This document shows, piece after piece, positions 5,171-18,741 of a stretch of DNA of 35,864 nt. The notes beneath the pieces are model-generated. The model saw only the letters and a list, made by a program, of their open reading frames with translations. It had not been told where the DNA came from and ran no database searches. The first letter of the stretch is position 1, and every line of letters begins with the position of its first letter. This DNA is from Campylobacteraceae bacterium (GTDB lineage: Bacteria; Campylobacterota; Campylobacteria; Campylobacterales; Campylobacteraceae). The stretch spans positions 1 through 35,864 of the forward strand of contig JAISQB010000080.1 of assembly GCA_031274495.1 (NCBI GenBank). Reading direction: 5' to 3'. A program made the position numbers and the translations under genes.

Positions 5171-6436
5171 GTGAAGCCCTATCTGCCGCTTTTTCAACGA
5201 AAGCTTGAGGGGGCGGCGCTGTTTGCCGGGCTGCTTTGTATACTTCTTGTAAATATCGCTTTTAAATACGCCGATTTTTTGGAGTTCAAGAGCCGCTCGT
5301 GGGCGTCGTTTCGCGGCGATTTGGTAAATATCGTGCCCTTAATCGCAAAAAACGGCAGAGCATATCAGCGCCTCTATGTAAAAAACGACGACGGTATCAC
5401 GCTCACGGTAGCCTACTTTGCCAAAGATGAGTTTAAAATAAATATGCGCGTAGGCTTTCGCGTCAAAACGGATGGGGTCACATTTGCCGATTTTTTATCG
5501 CGCAGGTTTTACGCGCCGTCCGTTTTAGTCTGGGCAAACGAGGCGGAGGCGAGCTTAAGAGATAGGCTTTTTGACGCTATCGCGCTTCAGCACGAAGATA
5601 AACTCACCAAAGAGCTATTCGGCGCGCTTTTTTTGGCTACACCTATATCCAAAGAGTTAAGGGACGCGGTGCAGCTCTTTGGCGTGTCACATCTAATCGC
5701 CATAAGTGGCTTTCACCTTGGTATAATATTTGCCTTTTTGTACGCTCTTTTAAATCTCCCCTACCGCTTTTTTCAAAACAGATACTTCCCGTACCGCAAC
5801 GCCCGCTGGGACATCTCGCTTGTCGTATTTTTGCTGCTTGGCGGGTATCTGTGGCTTATAGATATGACGCCATCGTTCTTGCGCTCTTATGTGATGGGGG
5901 CGGCTGGATTTTTGTTTTTGTGGCGAGGCGTCAATGTCATCAATTTTGAACTGCTGTTTTTATGCGCGGCGTTTTTGGTGAGCCTCTTTCCGCATTTAGC
6001 TTTTAATGTGGGCTTTATACTCTCGTGCTTTGGTGTATTTTTTATATTTGTCTATGTGAGGCATTTTGGGGATAGTTTCAAAGTGTGGCAGAGCGCTGTT
6101 CTTATCAATATCTGGCTCTTTTTGGCGATGACCCCGTTGGTGCATTACTGGTTTGGGGCGCTAAGCGTTATGCAATTTGCCTGCGTGCCGTTGAGCATTT
6201 TGTTTGTTCTCTTTTATCCGATAGAGGCGGTTTTGCATTTGATAGGATGGGGCGGGATATTGGATAGTTTTATCGTAAAATTTTTGAGTTTTCAAGTCCA
6301 AAGTTTAGAAGTAAAGACCCCTTTATGGCTGCTTGCCGTCTATATCCTTTTGTCGTTTGGCGCGGCGAAGAGGAGGATTTTCACTCTTGCTTTGGCTCTT
6401 TTGGGCGGCGGCTTCTTTATATCTTTGCTGCGTTAG
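5171..6436 (+). CDS. comEC: ComEC/Rec2-family DNA-uptake channel, short form
   Basis: ComEC forms the inner-membrane channel for single-stranded DNA during natural transformation. The 421-residue protein starts at a GTG preceded by AAGC/GGTG-type sequence without a strong ribosome site, and is probably coupled to dnaB seven bases upstream. It has an N-terminal membrane segment (residues 15-32) and a soluble region to about 130. The ComEC core follows, with the family motif HLIAISGFHLG (about 175-185) and TPSFLRSYVMG (about 236-246), then several membrane helices. The C-terminal metallo-beta-lactamase-like domain of Bacillus ComEC is absent, as in H. pylori ComE3, which also follows dnaB (known from memory). 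The last 114 bases overlap the end of yihY on the other strand. Confidence 0.88.
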   Translation: MKPYLPLFQRKLEGAALFAGLLCILLVNIAFKYADFLEFKSRSWASFRGDLVNIVPLIAKNGRAYQRLYVKNDDGITLTVAYFAKDEFKINMRVGFRVKTDGVTFADFLSRRFYAPSVLVWANEAEASLRDRLFDAIALQHEDKLTKELFGALFLATPISKELRDAVQLFGVSHLIAISGFHLGIIFAFLYALLNLPYRFFQNRYFPYRNARWDISLVVFLLLGGYLWLIDMTPSFLRSYVMGAAGFLFLWRGVNVINFELLFLCAAFLVSLFPHLAFNVGFILSCFGVFFIFVYVRHFGDSFKVWQSAVLINIWLFLAMTPLVHYWFGALSVMQFACVPLSILFVLFYPIEAVLHLIGWGGILDSFIVKFLSFQVQSLEVKTPLWLLAVYILLSFGAAKRRIFTLALALLGGGFFISLLR

Positions 6437-7219
6437 ATGCAAAAGATAGCAGACTCTTATGCCATACAAAAATATAACCCACGAGATATATATCCAGACA
6501 AATAAAAATAGTATGACGCTAAATGGTCCATATATCGTCTGATATATCTGGTTGTGGGTCGCGTAGAGTACGAAAAGGGTCTTTGAGAGATACCAGATAA
6601 GCGACGCCAAAAATGACGCCAAAGCACCAGCGCTCATAGATATTTTCGCACTTGAAGATATCATATAGACGGTAAAAAAGAGCGCCCATACGACAAGATA
6701 TGGAAACGCCGCTAAGATATTTATATTGCTAAAGCCATACCCCGCCAAAAACTTCTGTATAACGGTAGATAGATAAAACGATACACCAAGCAGTATGGGG
6801 GCGAGCGTCACAAGCGTCCAGTATGAAGAGAGGGACTGCCAAAAGGGGCGCGGGGTTGTGTGCATAATTTTATTAAAAATTGCCTCGTAATCCCTGAAAA
6901 ACAGCACCGATACAATAAGCATCGTCACAAAGCCAAATATCCCTATCTGCGTTGTGTTGCCCAAAAATTTGTCTATATATTCGGAGATGACCTCTGGGTT
7001 TGACGGCGAGATGGAGTTAAAGATAAATGTTTTTATCGTGTTGTAGTGTTCGTTGAAACTGGGCAATTTAGTGACTATGGAGAATGTCAAAAGTAGCACG
7101 GGGATGACCGAAAGGATCGTGTGAAAACTAAGACTTGAAGCGTATGTCATCAAGTCTTTGTCGTTGAGTCTGCCCAAAAGCGCGAAGAGTTCTTTGCACT
7201 TTTGTAGGAGCTTCATCAT
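6323..7219 (-). CDS. yihY: YihY/BrkB-family inner-membrane protein
   Basis: A 298-residue membrane protein of the YihY/BrkB (UPF0761) family. The family signature is clear near the N terminus: DLMTYASSLSFHTILSVIPVLLLTFSI, followed by about five more hydrophobic helices and a YGPFSVILFLFVWIYISWVIFLYG block near residues 225-250. The cytoplasmic tail (about 265-298) is rich in Lys, Arg and Ser. Earlier claims that the family is ribonuclease BN are not upheld; the function is unknown. The start overlaps the glcD stop by four bases, so it is coupled to glcD. Its last 114 bases run antisense to the 3' end of comEC, and those bases encode the charged tail. Confidence 0.88.
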   Translation of the reverse strand: MMKLLQKCKELFALLGRLNDKDLMTYASSLSFHTILSVIPVLLLTFSIVTKLPSFNEHYNTIKTFIFNSISPSNPEVISEYIDKFLGNTTQIGIFGFVTMLIVSVLFFRDYEAIFNKIMHTTPRPFWQSLSSYWTLVTLAPILLGVSFYLSTVIQKFLAGYGFSNINILAAFPYLVVWALFFTVYMISSSAKISMSAGALASFLASLIWYLSKTLFVLYATHNQIYQTIYGPFSVILFLFVWIYISWVIFLYGIRVCYLLHLTQQRYKEAAAQKSQSKSENPPLRRAKRQKDIDGKQP

Positions 7220-12557: not shown

Positions 12558-13651
12558 TATTCGTCTAAATTTCTATGCAATATCTCTTCCAAAACCACCG
12601 TGGCATATGCCCCTTTTGTGAGGGTGAAATTCATCTCGAACCACGCCTCTTCTTCTTTGTATTTGTATTCAAAATCCTCTGTAAAATTCCACGCGTAGCG
12701 TCTTGAGCCGTCTATTTTGTCTAAAAATTGCTCTGCTTCGTTAAAAATCTCACTCTCTATCTCGCCGGCTAATCCTTCGGCTTTTATCGCGCGACCGCCT
12801 GCAAGAAAGCCGGTGACGGTGATATCTCTTGCCAAAAACCTCGCATTTTCCGCATCCAAATCCTCGCATAAAAACGCCTTTCCGTGCGGATAGTGACAGC
12901 AGATGTCGCCTTTTAAAAGTTTGAAAAATTGTGGCTGTTTTTTTATCTCTTTTATCGTCTCTTTGTCCCATTTTATCGCGTTTTGAAGCTCTGTCGGGCT
13001 AAAGTCCTCAAAATATTTACTTATCTCTATCCTTTTAGATAACCATCTGTTGAAAAGTTCGCTCTGGTACGCACTGATTAAAAAATCCCTAAGTTTTGGG
13101 TTGCGCTCTTTTTTTTCGCCGCTAAGTATCGCTCTGCCAAGCTCAAAATTATCGCCGTCTTTGCCGAAGCGTTGATAACCAAAATAGTTGGGATACCCCT
13201 CTTTAGCTATCTTTTCGCAGGCATATGAGAGCTTCAAAGCGTCTTGCGGGAGCACTTTTTTTAGCCTTATGAAGAAGCGGTTGCCTTTGAGATGTCCTAT
13301 TTTTATCTTATTGTTGTGGTAAAAAGTGTTTAAAATTTTGACATTCGGGTGCGAAAAATTCTCAAAAGCTTTTGCGTAATTTTTATGTATGCTCACATAT
13401 TGCGTTGTCATACCTTCTTTGTCTTTTAGCCCCGCGTAGCCAAAATCGCGCATCTTAGCCCCGCTCGTATCGCTGAAAATCCGAAGCATCTGCCAAGTGG
13501 TCAAATCCTTTTTTCGCGCGTGCATCACAAAGTGTTCGCCCTCACCGCTAAATTCGTAAAGCGGTATCTCACTCACGACAAAATCGCTCGAGTTTTTGCT
13601 AAAATGCGCCTGTTTAATCGCGGCGTGGTTCATAAAAAATAATCTGCTCAC
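12557..13651 (-). CDS. truD: tRNA pseudouridine-13 synthase TruD
   Basis: TruD converts U13 of tRNA-Glu and some other RNAs to pseudouridine. The 364-residue protein carries the catalytic motif GYAGLKDKEGMTTQ with Asp77. It also has the family segments KDFxVxEIPLYEFSGEGEH-like near residues 22-40, NYFGYQRFG (about 155-163) and ISAYQSELFNRWLS. The start is GTG at 13651, four bases inside the thiL stop, with AAGGAG at good spacing; an ATG six codons later is less well placed. It is translationally coupled to thiL and converges on mltC. Confidence 0.93.
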   Translation of the reverse strand: MSRLFFMNHAAIKQAHFSKNSSDFVVSEIPLYEFSGEGEHFVMHARKKDLTTWQMLRIFSDTSGAKMRDFGYAGLKDKEGMTTQYVSIHKNYAKAFENFSHPNVKILNTFYHNNKIKIGHLKGNRFFIRLKKVLPQDALKLSYACEKIAKEGYPNYFGYQRFGKDGDNFELGRAILSGEKKERNPKLRDFLISAYQSELFNRWLSKRIEISKYFEDFSPTELQNAIKWDKETIKEIKKQPQFFKLLKGDICCHYPHGKAFLCEDLDAENARFLARDITVTGFLAGGRAIKAEGLAGEIESEIFNEAEQFLDKIDGSRRYAWNFTEDFEYKYKEEEAWFEMNFTLTKGAYATVVLEEILHRNLDE

Positions 13652-14481
13652 ATATCTCCTTCAAAATGGTGTTCTTTGCATTCGCTCACATACAAGCCCT
13701 CGCACGCTTTGGCGAATATATGAAGCGGCGTTTTTGTTATTTTTGCGGCGTGTAAAACTTTGGTCGTATTTTTGGGGTCAAACGCCACCAACATCTCGTA
13801 TTCCTCCCCGCTGCAAAGGGTATTTTTGTCTATCTTTTCGCAAAATTCCACGCCAACGCCGCCCAAAATACAAAGGCGCGACAGATCTTTACTAAGAGAG
13901 TCCGAGATATCAAGACCACACCGCAGATATTTAGCGGCGGCTTTGATAAATTTAGCTCTTAAAATTGGCTTTGCAAAACGCGACTCCGCCTTTACAACTC
14001 CGCCGTTTAAAAGCTCTTGCAGCTCACAAGCACTTTGCCCCAAAACGCCCGTATATGCCAAAATATCGCCCTTTTTTAAGCCTGAACGATAGAGTGTATG
14101 TTTTCGTTTTTTGGCGATAATCGTCAGAGAAATGATAATCTTTTCACTCGCAATCGTATCGCCGCCTATGATTTTTACGCCGTATTCGCGGGCGCTCTCG
14201 TTAAAGCCTTTTGATAACTCTTCTATATCTTGCTTGCTAAAATTTTTAGGCAAGCCTAACCCCAAAAGCGCGTATTTTGGTTTGGCATTCATCGCGATGG
14301 CGTCGGAGATGTTGACAAGCATAGCTTTTTGCGCGATTTGGTACGGGCTAAGCCAGCCTTGTTTGAAGTGCGTATCTTCGCAAAAGAGGTCTTTTGAATA
14401 GACCCATTTGCCGACAACCGCGCCGTCATCGCCTATCGCGGCATTTTGAAATTGCGATATGATAAACGACTCTTTATCCAA
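13648..14481 (-). CDS. thiL: Thiamine-monophosphate kinase ThiL
   Basis: ThiL phosphorylates thiamine monophosphate to thiamine diphosphate, the last step of the pathway. The 277-residue protein, slightly shorter than the E. coli one, has the AIR-synthetase-like fold. It carries IGDDGAVVG near residue 17, CEDTHFKQGWLSPYQIAQKAM, NISDAIAMNAKPKYALLGLGLP, IIGGDTIASEKI, GDILAYTG and CGLDISDSLSKDL. The first residues (MDKESFIISQF) fit the usual start. It is the first gene of a two-gene unit with truD and diverges from the SdhB-like gene. No second TPP riboswitch is visible in front of it. Confidence 0.95.
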   Translation of the reverse strand: MDKESFIISQFQNAAIGDDGAVVGKWVYSKDLFCEDTHFKQGWLSPYQIAQKAMLVNISDAIAMNAKPKYALLGLGLPKNFSKQDIEELSKGFNESAREYGVKIIGGDTIASEKIIISLTIIAKKRKHTLYRSGLKKGDILAYTGVLGQSACELQELLNGGVVKAESRFAKPILRAKFIKAAAKYLRCGLDISDSLSKDLSRLCILGGVGVEFCEKIDKNTLCSGEEYEMLVAFDPKNTTKVLHAAKITKTPLHIFAKACEGLYVSECKEHHFEGDM

Positions 14482-14651: not shown

Positions 14652-15344
14652 ATGTCCTGTCTGGTTACCGTAAACGTGTTTCGTTTTAACGCTAAGAGCG
14701 ATTTCTTGCCATATTATAAAGAGTATGAGATAAAAGTCGGCGAAGACGATACATTACTGGATGTTTTAAACGGTATAAAAGAACAAGATGGCGGATTTTC
14801 CTTTTCGGACAATAAATTTATAGGCATCAGGGTAAACTCCTTTGTGGTTTCTGTAAATCTGCACATCAAAACTCTCATTAAATTTTTAAAAACAGACAAA
14901 TTGACACTTGAGCCTTTAAGCGAATTTTATGCTGTGCGCGATCTTGATATAGACACAAGCTCGTTTTTGAAGCAGTTGGATTATCTTGAAGAGTTTATGG
15001 AAGAGGACGACAAGGAGCAGTATGACGAGCTTGTATCGTACTACTATACATCTTCGACTATTGAGTTTGAGCGCGAGTATTTTGGCGATTCGTTTATGCT
15101 GTTTGCGAAGTTTTTAATTGAAAAATATCCGCACAAAAGAGACGCGATACTACGCTTGTGTGCCGACGAAAAACGCGGTATATGGCTGCACACCTCCATC
15201 AAAAACGCTCTAATGCTCTACTCAAAAGCAGTTAGCATAGAGGCGAGTATCACGGAATTGAAAAGAGATATTTTGCGGTATGTTCCCGATACTAACCCCA
15301 CAACAAAGCGCGAAGCAAAACGCGCCCAAAATTTAAGTTTTTAA
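14652..15344 (+). CDS. SdhB/FrdB-like protein lacking all iron-sulfur cysteines (probably the DUF5644 family)
   Basis: A 230-residue protein with no catalytic motif. It is laid out like the iron-sulfur subunit of succinate dehydrogenase/fumarate reductase. The start VTVNVFRFNAKSDFLPYYKEYEIKV and TLLDVLNGIKEQDGGFSF mirror SdhB's ferredoxin domain. The region where SdhB places CREGxCGSx keeps the same length, but the cysteine positions hold other residues. PLSEFYAVRDLDIDTSSFLKQ then matches SdhB's PLPxxPVIRDLVVDxxxFxxQ. The second half keeps an SIxN...K...I..LK skeleton where SdhB has its CxxxC motifs. Only two cysteines remain (residue 3 and about 175). It therefore probably binds no cluster and may be a structural or regulatory paralog. 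GGAGG precedes the ATG, and the next gene starts six bases after the stop. I recall a DUF5644 label for such proteins in Campylobacterota, but that is unchecked. Confidence 0.7.
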   Translation: MSCLVTVNVFRFNAKSDFLPYYKEYEIKVGEDDTLLDVLNGIKEQDGGFSFSDNKFIGIRVNSFVVSVNLHIKTLIKFLKTDKLTLEPLSEFYAVRDLDIDTSSFLKQLDYLEEFMEEDDKEQYDELVSYYYTSSTIEFEREYFGDSFMLFAKFLIEKYPHKRDAILRLCADEKRGIWLHTSIKNALMLYSKAVSIEASITELKRDILRYVPDTNPTTKREAKRAQNLSF

Positions 15345-15350
15345 GGCGCA

Positions 15351-16193
15351 ATGATGGCAAACTATATCATTTTTGACAAAATGAACAAAAAACTTGTTAC
15401 CAAACCTTTCAAATCCGCAGGGGAGGTTTTTTTAAGAGAGTTTTATGTCGCAAATTACGCTATAAAGACGAATCTATCCGACATAGGCGCTGAAAATTAC
15501 ATACTAAATCCCAAACTTTTCGCCAAAAATTTTGTCAAGATTTTAGCCCAAGCGGGTAAAAACGGCGAAACCATCATCACTTATGATATCAGCTCATATC
15601 TGTCGCTTCTGTTTGCGAAAAATTTCATTATGGATAACGCCGATGTGAAAGAGGAGATGGAGAATTTTCTAAATCCGTTCGAACTTACGACTGATTTTTT
15701 GGCAGACGCGTTACATATCAACGCCTTTATCATAGAAAAAGACGCGACCAAGCATATGAAAAAAAACCTCAAATACCCGTTTAGCGACTTTAAAGCGGCG
15801 TTTTATTATGGGGCGGATATAAGGTCGGACGAGTATTCCAATCGAGAGTTGAACACATTTTTTGATACGATAGACTTAAAGCGCGTGAGATTTAGTAGGG
15901 AGCTTAATCCAAGCGGCTACGAGCTGCTTCGCTACGCGCCTGAAATCGCCCTAAAGATGGCGGGAAATATCCTGCTTGACGCGTTTGACAGCGGGGCGGA
16001 CTTTTTGATAGTAAACGATACGCGCACCTTTTATCTGATGGACACGAAACGAAAAGAGGTAGAGAGGGCTGTGGGGCGGGAGATACCGATATACATTTTG
16101 ACGCTGCCGCAAGTGGCTTTGATGGCGTATGGGGTCACCGATAAAAAAATCTTAGGATTTAACGCGCATAATGTAAAACCGACGCTTTTGTGA
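15351..16193 (+). CDS. Cysteine-free HdrB/SdhE-like (CCG-domain fold) protein
   Basis: A 280-residue protein without a single cysteine. Its layout follows HdrB/SdhE (MfrE) subunits, which carry two CCG domains for unusual [4Fe-4S] clusters. TIITYDISSYLSLLFAKNFI (about 75-94) sits where they have VTxCNxCYxSLxxAN. FKAAFYYGADI matches LKVAVHYGCHL. The end (DSGADFLIVNDTRTFYLMD, IPIYILTLPQVALMAYG, KKILGFNAHNVKPTLL) follows AGADxIVxxCPFCxLQFD, IPVLHxxQLLGLAMG and xELGLDxHxVxPxxLL. Every cysteine is replaced. It directly follows the SdhB-like gene, so the two likely form a complex that mimics the SdhB-SdhE pair without electron transfer (inference). ATG at 15351 or 15354; family labels are from memory. 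Confidence 0.65.
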   Translation: MMANYIIFDKMNKKLVTKPFKSAGEVFLREFYVANYAIKTNLSDIGAENYILNPKLFAKNFVKILAQAGKNGETIITYDISSYLSLLFAKNFIMDNADVKEEMENFLNPFELTTDFLADALHINAFIIEKDATKHMKKNLKYPFSDFKAAFYYGADIRSDEYSNRELNTFFDTIDLKRVRFSRELNPSGYELLRYAPEIALKMAGNILLDAFDSGADFLIVNDTRTFYLMDTKRKEVERAVGREIPIYILTLPQVALMAYGVTDKKILGFNAHNVKPTLL

Positions 16194-16345: not shown

Positions 16346-16738
16346 ATGCCTAAGATTAATCGTTATGTAGATATAGATACGGTAGAAAGAGAGTCTAGAA
16401 AAGACTACATAGACAGACACTCGCCGTTTGTTCACTGTGCCTCCTCCGCCAAAAAGGGCGAGAAATTTGCCGTAACGGTAAAGGTCGGAAATGAGTACTC
16501 TCATCCGGATGATTTTGACCATTATATAGCAAATGTCTCTTTGTATGACGGCGAAACGCTTTTGGCAAGAGCCGATTTTGTCGCGGGTGCGCTTGGCGGT
16601 CAAGGCGCTAAAGGACAGTTGGAGGTAGTTTTCAATATAGTCCCGACAGGCTCAAAGCTAAATTTCACAGCCCACGCCTACTGTACAAAGCACGGTTTGT
16701 GGGAGAGCGACCCCGTTGTCGTTGAAGTAGCGGAGTAA
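16346..16738 (+). CDS. sor: Superoxide reductase (class II, neelaredoxin-like)
   Basis: The protein reduces superoxide to hydrogen peroxide at a mononuclear iron site. It has 130 residues and no N-terminal desulforedoxin cysteines, so it is the one-iron class. The Fe(His)4Cys ligands are all present: H25, H53, H59, C113 and H116 (CTKH). The loop that normally reads Glu-Lys-His-Val-Pro reads Asp-Arg-His-Ser-Pro here, so the Lys that guides superoxide is Arg24 and the Glu is Asp23. AAGGAG precedes the ATG. A 12-bp stem terminator follows the stop, so it ends its own unit. It suggests that the host meets oxygen while living at low oxygen. Confidence 0.9.
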   Translation: MPKINRYVDIDTVERESRKDYIDRHSPFVHCASSAKKGEKFAVTVKVGNEYSHPDDFDHYIANVSLYDGETLLARADFVAGALGGQGAKGQLEVVFNIVPTGSKLNFTAHAYCTKHGLWESDPVVVEVAE

Positions 16739-16870: not shown

Positions 16871-17530
16871 ATGTCAAAACTTGAAACCCTAAAAATGTTA
16901 CAAGAGCTGTATATCTACCGCTCATTTGGATTTACATACTATAAAAAGCGTGAGATTGCGCCCCAAAAGCCAAGCGCTTCTATACCAAACAGTATGGACG
17001 AGCTGAAAAAAAATTCGCTCGGATGCCTTTTGTGCAATCTCTGTAAAACACGCAAAAATGTAGTCTTTGGCGAAGGCAATTTGCACGCTAAAGTTATGTT
17101 TGTAGGCGAAGGTCCCGGGGCAAATGAAGATATGCAAGGAAGACCGTTTGTAGGCAAAGCGGGAGAGCTTCTCACAAGAATGATAGAAAATGTGCTGAAT
17201 ATAAAACGGCGCGACACTTATATCGCAAACATTGTCAAATGCCGTCCGCCTGAAAATCGCGTGCCCACTCCCGAAGAGGCTAATATGTGCAAACCGTATC
17301 TTTTTAAACAGATAGAGATAGTAGCCCCACAGATAATTGTAGCGCTGGGTAACACAAGCTACCGCTATCTCACGGGCGATGAGAGAGGCATCACAAAAGT
17401 GCGTGGCGAGATAATAGACTACAAAAACGCCAAACTTATACCTACTTTTCATCCAAGTTATCTTTTAAGAAATGAATCCGCCAAAAAAGAGGCTTATCAA
17501 GATATGTTAAGAGTGAGGGCTCTATTATGA
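16871..17530 (+). CDS. Family 4 uracil-DNA glycosylase
   Basis: This enzyme removes uracil from DNA to start base-excision repair. The 219-residue protein is a family 4 (iron-sulfur) UDG. Motif 1 reads GEGPGANEDMQGRPFVGKAG (79-98) and motif 2 is FHPSYLLR near residues 197-204. Cluster cysteines are C52 and C55 (with C58 close by), C124 (VKCRPPENR) and C140. An N-terminal extension of about 45 residues precedes the cluster, as in many Campylobacterota copies. There is no ribosome site; a TATCAT box seven bases upstream suggests a leaderless message. Its stop overlaps the next start by four bases. Confidence 0.93.
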   Translation: MSKLETLKMLQELYIYRSFGFTYYKKREIAPQKPSASIPNSMDELKKNSLGCLLCNLCKTRKNVVFGEGNLHAKVMFVGEGPGANEDMQGRPFVGKAGELLTRMIENVLNIKRRDTYIANIVKCRPPENRVPTPEEANMCKPYLFKQIEIVAPQIIVALGNTSYRYLTGDERGITKVRGEIIDYKNAKLIPTFHPSYLLRNESAKKEAYQDMLRVRALL

Positions 17531-18741
17531 AAAAGATAGTTGTTTTTCTTGTATTGTCGTGTATGGCTTATGCACTAAGCGATAAGCCCTCCGAAATCCC
17601 ACTTCCAAAAAGCATCTTTTTGGATACCAACCCCACAAAATGCGATAACGCGTGTTTAAATAAACTGCTTAGCGAGGAGAAATTTTTTAGTTTTATGAGT
17701 AAATATACTGAGAAGTACTCCACGCCGTCTTTGGAAGAGCACTATCTTAACTACGCGCAAATATTCAATCTGCTGATGTATTACGATGTAGAGCCTGTCT
17801 TCGGAACTATCAAACTCGCCGTTCTTGTGCCGCAAAAAAGTATCAAACATTACGCGCTCACCTCCGTAAATGCCGCGCTGGCATATCTTTTTAGGCAGAG
17901 GAGCAATTTTGAGCTTGCCGTATTTAACAGCGGTGACGAGAGTGAAGAGGCTATAAGAGTTACGCTAAATGAGATACGAAAGGGCGAATATCTGTATGTC
18001 ATCGCCCCCATAACGCAAGACGGGCTTGACGCGCTGGTAAAAAATAGTCACGGTCTGTATGTGTTCATCCCCACGCTTCATAAGTCGCTGTACGAATATG
18101 TACCCAGCAATATCCTCTTCGGCGGTATCGATTATAGCGCTCAAATAGACACTTTAAATGAGTTCGCGAACGATAATGTCGTCATATTCTCCGGCGGGAG
18201 CAAGCTGGAATTAAGCTTAAACGATATGGTAAAAAGCCAAGACAAAACGGTCACGGAGACACTATTTTTTGCAAGCCCCAAAGATAACTTTAAAAAATCG
18301 ATAGAGAACAATAAAAAGCTTGACAACGCCTCTATCTATCTGAATATGCCCCGCTTTATGTCCGGACTGCTTGCTTCACAGCTTAGAGCCTATAAGCACT
18401 CCCCATTCGCGCTTTTATCCACGCAGATAAATTTCCACCCCGACCTTTTAAACCTTACGCAGTACGAGGATAGGAAAAATCTATATCTTGCCAACTCCAT
18501 AGGCAAGTTTGACCAAAATCTTGAGAGTATTAACGCATTTTTGGGCAATAATATGGAGTATGATTGGGTCAATTACGCTATCTCCATCGGTATGGAATAT
18601 TTGAATGTGAACTTTTTTAACCAAGATGTGGATAGAATTTTTAAAGAGAGTATAAATAACTACGGGCAGATAGAGTACGATACGCGCATCTTTAAAGCGT
18701 CGCAATTTGGCTTTGTGGAGCAGACAAAAAGCGCAGATTAG
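17527..18741 (+). CDS. Exported protein of unknown function, possible periplasmic-binding (LpoA/ABC-like) fold
   Basis: A 404-residue protein with a signal peptide (MKKIVVFLVLSCMAYA) and two close cysteines (C39, C43) just after it. From residue about 100 the pattern is alternating strands and helices: KLAVLVPQKSIKHYALTSVNAALAYLF, FELAVFNSGDESEEAIRVTLNEI, YVIAPITQDGLDAL, GLYVFIPTL and NVVIFSGG. This resembles a type I periplasmic-binding or LpoA-like fold, where VPxSG...A...A is typical. No enzyme motif is visible. It starts four bases inside the UDG gene (ATGA), an odd partner for a periplasmic protein. It may be a general envelope factor; the identification rests only on fold-like pattern. 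Confidence 0.5.
   Translation: MKKIVVFLVLSCMAYALSDKPSEIPLPKSIFLDTNPTKCDNACLNKLLSEEKFFSFMSKYTEKYSTPSLEEHYLNYAQIFNLLMYYDVEPVFGTIKLAVLVPQKSIKHYALTSVNAALAYLFRQRSNFELAVFNSGDESEEAIRVTLNEIRKGEYLYVIAPITQDGLDALVKNSHGLYVFIPTLHKSLYEYVPSNILFGGIDYSAQIDTLNEFANDNVVIFSGGSKLELSLNDMVKSQDKTVTETLFFASPKDNFKKSIENNKKLDNASIYLNMPRFMSGLLASQLRAYKHSPFALLSTQINFHPDLLNLTQYEDRKNLYLANSIGKFDQNLESINAFLGNNMEYDWVNYAISIGMEYLNVNFFNQDVDRIFKESINNYGQIEYDTRIFKASQFGFVEQTKSAD

Follow-up and report, generated by a model that had tools for sequence, protein, structure and literature searches.

An apparently redox-dead paralog of the SdhB-SdhE electron-transfer arm in Campylobacterota

The locus studied here raises the question of what two adjacent genes are, and what they do, when both resemble electron-carrier subunits of one reductase and both lack its metal ligands. 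It lies in the 35,864-nucleotide stretch of Campylobacteraceae DNA that we analyzed as a whole (the window). The first gene (14652..15344, forward strand) encodes a 230-aa pseudo-SdhB, termed psN, in which a Fer2 domain with a deleted [2Fe-2S] loop is followed by DUF5644. About 6-7 bases separate its stop codon from the start of the second gene (15351..16193, forward strand, ATG start), which encodes a 280-aa pseudo-SdhE, psC, with an HdrB/SdhE fold but without the ten cysteines. The left border of the conserved locus is the divergent thiL (13648..14481, reverse strand; NF004354, 8.6e-121), which also flanks either the pair or sdhABE in numerous other members of the Campylobacterota, and the right border is a desulfoferrodoxin-like gene (16346..16738, forward strand; PF01880, 4.9e-23).

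A preliminary description of this DNA recognized in the 280-aa protein the motif order of an SdhE/HdrB subunit. Alignment of psC with real SdhE recovers that order in degenerate form: TYDISSYLSLL stands for TxCNTCQLN, FYYGADIR for FYGCHNIR, VNDTRTFYLMD for TPCPLCHLKLD, and PIYILTLPQVALMAYG for PVLHMQQMVGLALG. psC passes the gathering cut-off of Pfam HdrB-like_C (PF22196; 3e-17, 62.8 bits against 33.4), and its family profile matches that of Campylobacterota SDH-type SdhE over 277 columns by hhalign (100%, E = 2e-41). In Foldseek, its AlphaFold model (pLDDT 89) matched HdrB chains at TM 0.79-0.83 (best E = 4e-14), including 5ODC_B at 0.83 (E = 5e-13), and the Helicobacter pylori structure 3KWL at 0.85. 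The check for CCG similarity against PF02754 gave no match with psC, yet the profile-profile and fold comparisons with SdhE/HdrB are decisive and the homology stands; with MFR_anch_SdhE (NF042965), psC scored 25.6 bits against a curated cut-off of 500. Judged by profiles and predicted fold, psC is a true relative of SdhE/HdrB, with homology far beyond chance. It has the fold and whole-length homology of the SdhE/CCG (HdrB) family and lacks the two CCG cysteine motifs (the ten-cysteine motif in SdhE). Thus, although it shares the fold of HdrB of heterodisulfide reductase, it differs from that subunit in having neither CCG motifs nor, by prediction, clusters.

The evidence for psN runs parallel. 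It passes the Pfam cut-offs for Fer2_3 (6e-9, 36.3 bits; cut-off 27) and DUF5644 (PF18712; 1e-14, 54.9 bits; gathering cut-off 25), and its family profile matches SDH-type SdhB of the same phylum over the whole length (hhalign, 100%, E = 6e-40). Its AlphaFold model (pLDDT 95) aligned in Foldseek with full-length SdhB/FrdB chains at TM ~0.7 (0.73; best E = 5e-10) and with 3KWL at TM 0.78. The DUF5644 part alone matched the C-terminal cluster domain of SdhB in hhalign (94.6%, 7e-8, 112 columns); the psC profile, used as a control against that domain, reached 0.3%. A cut-down psN profile also matched SdhE (53%, 1e-4), but in columns 158-258, outside the 112-column DUF5644 match and where fused rows continue into the SdhE-like half. 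psN therefore combines the fold and whole-length homology of SdhB with absence of the ligands for the [2Fe-2S] and C-terminal clusters (12 Cys in the SDH-type). The SdhB motifs FRFxxxxDxxP and EPLSxxxAxxDL are retained. Because the profile-profile match coincides with the SdhB/FrdB fold match of the model, we identify DUF5644 as a degenerate, predicted cluster-less C-terminal domain of SdhB.

Ligand loss is best seen column by column. Of the ten invariant cysteine columns of SdhE, its 'ten-cysteine motif' (PMC2680327), nine hold no cysteine in 65 psC homologs and one holds 9. Among 69 psN homologs, eight of the twelve invariant SdhB ligand columns hold none, the others 1, 3, 2, and 6, and the [2Fe-2S] cluster loop is mostly deleted; across both families, 17 of 22 ligand columns have no cysteine at all (65-69 homologs). 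This bears out the earlier suggestion that two neighboring genes both imitate electron-carrying subunits of a single reductase and have both lost the metal ligands. The window's psC, as also noted before, contains no cysteine anywhere, for which the chance in 280 residues is ~0.06 at the window's cysteine frequency of 1.01%. Its closest homologs have 0 or 1 cysteine, and scattered cysteines occur outside the ligand columns among homologs. Given that probability and those cysteines elsewhere, total absence in the window is incidental; we reject it as evidence by itself, and the significant part is the loss at the ligand columns.

The source of the pair had been given as an SdhABE/MfrABE-type reductase, and of these two only SDH-type SdhABE stands. 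Trees of SdhE and of SdhB both give the pair a single origin (support 100/100 on each) and group it with SDH-type rather than MFR-type subunits (100/100 for SdhE, 85/77 for SdhB), separate from FRD subunits as well. The pseudo-SdhB profile matches SDH-type SdhB at 1e-21 to 1e-36 and MFR-type MfrB at ~1e-9 or not at all, and the psC profile-profile E-value is 2e-41 against the SDH-type vs. 4e-20 against the MFR-type. MfrABE (8-methylmenaquinol:fumarate reductase), whose SdhA has a twin-arginine export signal (PMC2680327), has a paralogous subunit architecture in common with the pair, but it is more distant, and MFR-type SdhABE was linked to the pair in none of six genomes examined; profile scores, trees, and genomic linkage all reject MfrABE as the source. 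Nesting of the pair inside SdhE, i.e., a duplication after the family had diverged, was not established, since a separate SdhE clade was not rejected (AU p = 0.24). On the evidence of profiles, trees, and models, then, the pair is a redox-dead paralog of the SdhB-SdhE electron-transfer arm of Campylobacterota SDH-type (E-type) SdhABE; by the same evidence it arose once from sdhB-sdhE, subsequently lost its cluster ligands, and has been maintained by purifying selection, including in many lineages that have no sdhABE. Relative to SDH-type SdhB-SdhE, which is the ancestral or sister family, gene order, fold, and locus are the same, whereas the pair has lost essentially all ligand cysteines and the [2Fe-2S] loop and is separated by a long stem of 1.4-1.7 changes per site.

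A direct homolog of the pair already has a crystal structure. 3KWL is an 'uncharacterized protein' of H. pylori, 514 aa long, with Pfam domains DUF5644 and HdrB-like_C; its residues 25-217 match psN (2e-20) and 311-512 match psC (3e-10), so that one fused chain there corresponds to two genes in the window. It is almost certainly HP0468, the H. pylori DUF5644 protein (PMC9570263), whose coordinates span 1488 bp (PMC6090961); a near-identical 496-aa homolog (L020/L087) adjoins a pepF-type gene. The open-access literature on the 3KWL/DUF5644 family yielded no function, no link to SdhBE, and no reading as a redox-dead SdhB-SdhE paralog. Thus, the Pfam domains and the crystal structure were known, and the identity proposed here appears to be new; it tells what a conserved protein of the phylum, listed as unknown in databases (HP0468, 3KWL, DUF5644), is and where it came from.

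The pair is widespread in Campylobacterota, split or fused, rather than local to the window. A search for relatives of the single protein returned one, from a Campylobacteraceae MAG. Presence was scored with the A2 profile at a cut-off stronger than any lone SdhB (best 2e-34); PF22196 alone was dropped for this purpose, as weak matches may be true SdhE. With f1-f13 and g numbers as the family and genus codes of our genome survey, the pair occurs in nearly all genomes of f1 (except genus g4 and part of g2), f5, and f10, in most of f2 and f6, and in the sole f13 genome; it is patchy in f3, f7, and f8, and the A2 profile found none in f4, f9, f11, or f12. The pair is encoded by two genes in f10, in much of f2, and in the genus of the window, and by one fused gene in f3, in f5-f8, in most of f1, and in the Helicobacter-like genera g19/g43. 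Matches of 340-370 aa in other genera, considered as real CCG proteins, were rejected as such and are fused, shortened forms of the pair. The trees imply about 4-5 switches between fused and split forms, and because of these several independent changes, and the single chain of 3KWL, psN and psC probably act together. Homology to both subunits, ligand loss, fusions, and 3KWL lend good support to the preliminary proposal of a non-redox heterodimer, and the job of the pair is probably one that does not involve carrying electrons. It is unusual for an electron-transfer arm to be retained throughout a phylum without its metal, and this suggests that subunits of the complex II type can have a non-redox function. 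Within the window's genus, dN/dS of the pair is 0.08-0.17 against two congeneric genomes, compared with 0.07-0.12 for thiL and 0.07-0.11 for UDG; dS is near saturation and the ratios are approximate. By this measure of sequence divergence, the pair is under purifying selection there and is not decaying.

Gene neighborhoods connect the pair to sdhABE. Several families share the order truD-thiL (divergent) / fused pair-sdhA-sdhB-sdhE-desulfoferrodoxin-like gene (L059), with variants in L048, L049, L053-L055, L060, and L062-L064; UDG follows in the last two. The window and f10 have thiL / psN-psC-desulfoferrodoxin-like gene-UDG, and since the flanking genes are the same, the pair stands, in genomes without sdhABE, at the site that sdhABE holds elsewhere. 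Among the 25 genomes identified as having both, 19, from five families, have the pair within ~6 kb of SDH-type SdhE, where random placement in a 2-Mb genome predicts roughly 0.6%; 13 have the pair immediately upstream in the same orientation, and the intervening sdhA was confirmed in nine. SdhE of either type was not found in the window's genome, in which FrdB is present. The gene at 16346-16738, whose product has a superoxide reductase domain, recurs across families 3' of sdhE (L053, L055, L059, L062-L064) or 3' of psC (window, L043, L046, L071).

As to function, we tentatively favor a complex II flavoprotein-binding assembly or regulatory factor that is not an electron carrier, and give this reading a probability of roughly 40%. 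To judge from the fusions and 3KWL, the two chains would assemble into a single stable heterodimer that has the shape of SdhB-SdhE but no cofactor. This heterodimer would bind the flavoprotein surface normally covered by SdhB/FrdB, on SdhA where present and on FrdA in the window's genome, and would hold or tune the flavoprotein before, or in place of, the iron-sulfur subunit. This role is favored because of the origin of the pair, its operon neighbor sdhA, the absence of PF03937, and an E. coli precedent. SdhE/YgfY/SDHAF2 (PF03937) was found in 0 of 101 Campylobacterota genomes, with E. coli and Caulobacter controls positive, and in E. coli the cofactor-free SdhE covers the face of FrdA to which FrdB binds (PMC5773532). 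The analogy proposed is only that of a cofactor-free protein over the SdhB site of the flavoprotein: SdhE/YgfY/SDHAF2 is far smaller than the pair and has no sequence relation to it, and neither psN nor psC contains the Sdh5 domain (PF03937). Any docking of the pair must also differ from that of SdhB, since the deleted [2Fe-2S] loop lies near the flavoprotein in complex II. The pair also bears on the question of how complex II is put together and flavinylated in Campylobacterota in the absence of SdhE/SDHAF2. It is a wider and rather unlikely proposition that Campylobacterota, apparently devoid of SdhE/SDHAF2, build or tune complex II by means of a dedicated factor derived from a duplicated SdhB-SdhE arm minus its clusters; an enzyme subunit would then have turned into its own assembly factor.

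Several observations weigh against a complex II role. sdhABE is kept without the pair in most of f7 and all of f4, and FRD is kept without it in f1 genus g4 and in G247, where the pair is a broken copy. As lineages keep either enzyme without it, the pair is not essential to fumarate reductase or SdhABE, and the presence/absence survey rejects its strict co-dependence on SdhABE or FrdABC. Linkage may also reflect inertia of the locus: as neighbors, UDG, truD, thiL, and the desulfoferrodoxin-like gene are no less conserved. It is conceivable, and only a little less likely than the flavoprotein-binding role, that the pair is a structural or regulatory non-redox heterodimer with a job unrelated to complex II, e.g., as a scaffold of another enzyme, and that proximity to sdhABE merely records its birthplace. 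The pair is indeed kept without SdhABE in the window and most Helicobacteraceae, has moved in Helicobacteraceae to a different apparent operon with a pepF-type (M3) oligoendopeptidase, and is reported, as HP0468, to be induced by molecular hydrogen (PMC6090961). Against such a job, tight linkage to sdhA is repeated in five families, and comparable cross-family linkage is otherwise seen only with genes of housekeeping roles.

The mimicry and linkage that suggest an assembly factor would equally suit a decoy that rivals SdhB at the flavoprotein and in certain conditions reduces or uncouples the activity of complex II, and FrdA-bound E. coli SdhE does block succinate/fumarate turnover (PMC5773532). 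However, a frequently shared apparent operon with sdhA is ill-suited to a condition-specific inhibitor, and we consider a decoy quite improbable. Still less credible is residual electron transfer through another cofactor or non-cysteine ligands: the fold is conserved and Asp, Ser, Glu, or Gln occupy some former ligand columns, but the replacements differ from homolog to homolog, with many gaps and many Leu, Ile, Phe, Ala, and Tyr residues among them, the [2Fe-2S] loop has been lost, and in many fused forms the SdhE domain is missing its first half. Decay into pseudogenes, suggested by the one broken copy (G247, two stops) and absence from some lineages, can hardly be entertained given the low dN/dS, comparable with that of thiL and UDG, frames that are open in nearly all genomes, and four residues (D213, D217, R243, and H273) that are invariant in 29 aligned sequences.

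Some further features of the family and the window deserve mention. The broken copy of G247 (genus g3) is a pseudo-SdhB part with two in-frame stops on contig 1:1391006-1391584 of a genome that keeps FrdB, and is probably a recent loss. In f5, the fused gene (L056-L058, L069) retains the pseudo-SdhB part while its SdhE-like half falls below detection by the A1 profile (E 1e-8); this half may be extremely diverged or replaced. The apparent operons with the M3 oligoendopeptidase (pepF type; L086:3240-7412 and L087:4191-8215), which were labeled Helicobacteraceae from gene content, include at the same positions two small genes (~160 and 103-116 aa) of no assigned role; in L086 the pair probably occupies 5536-7076. 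Finally, positions 17527-18741 of the window encode a 404-aa protein with a possible signal sequence at its start and no Pfam family above cut-off; its gene is conserved beside UDG4 in several families of the phylum.
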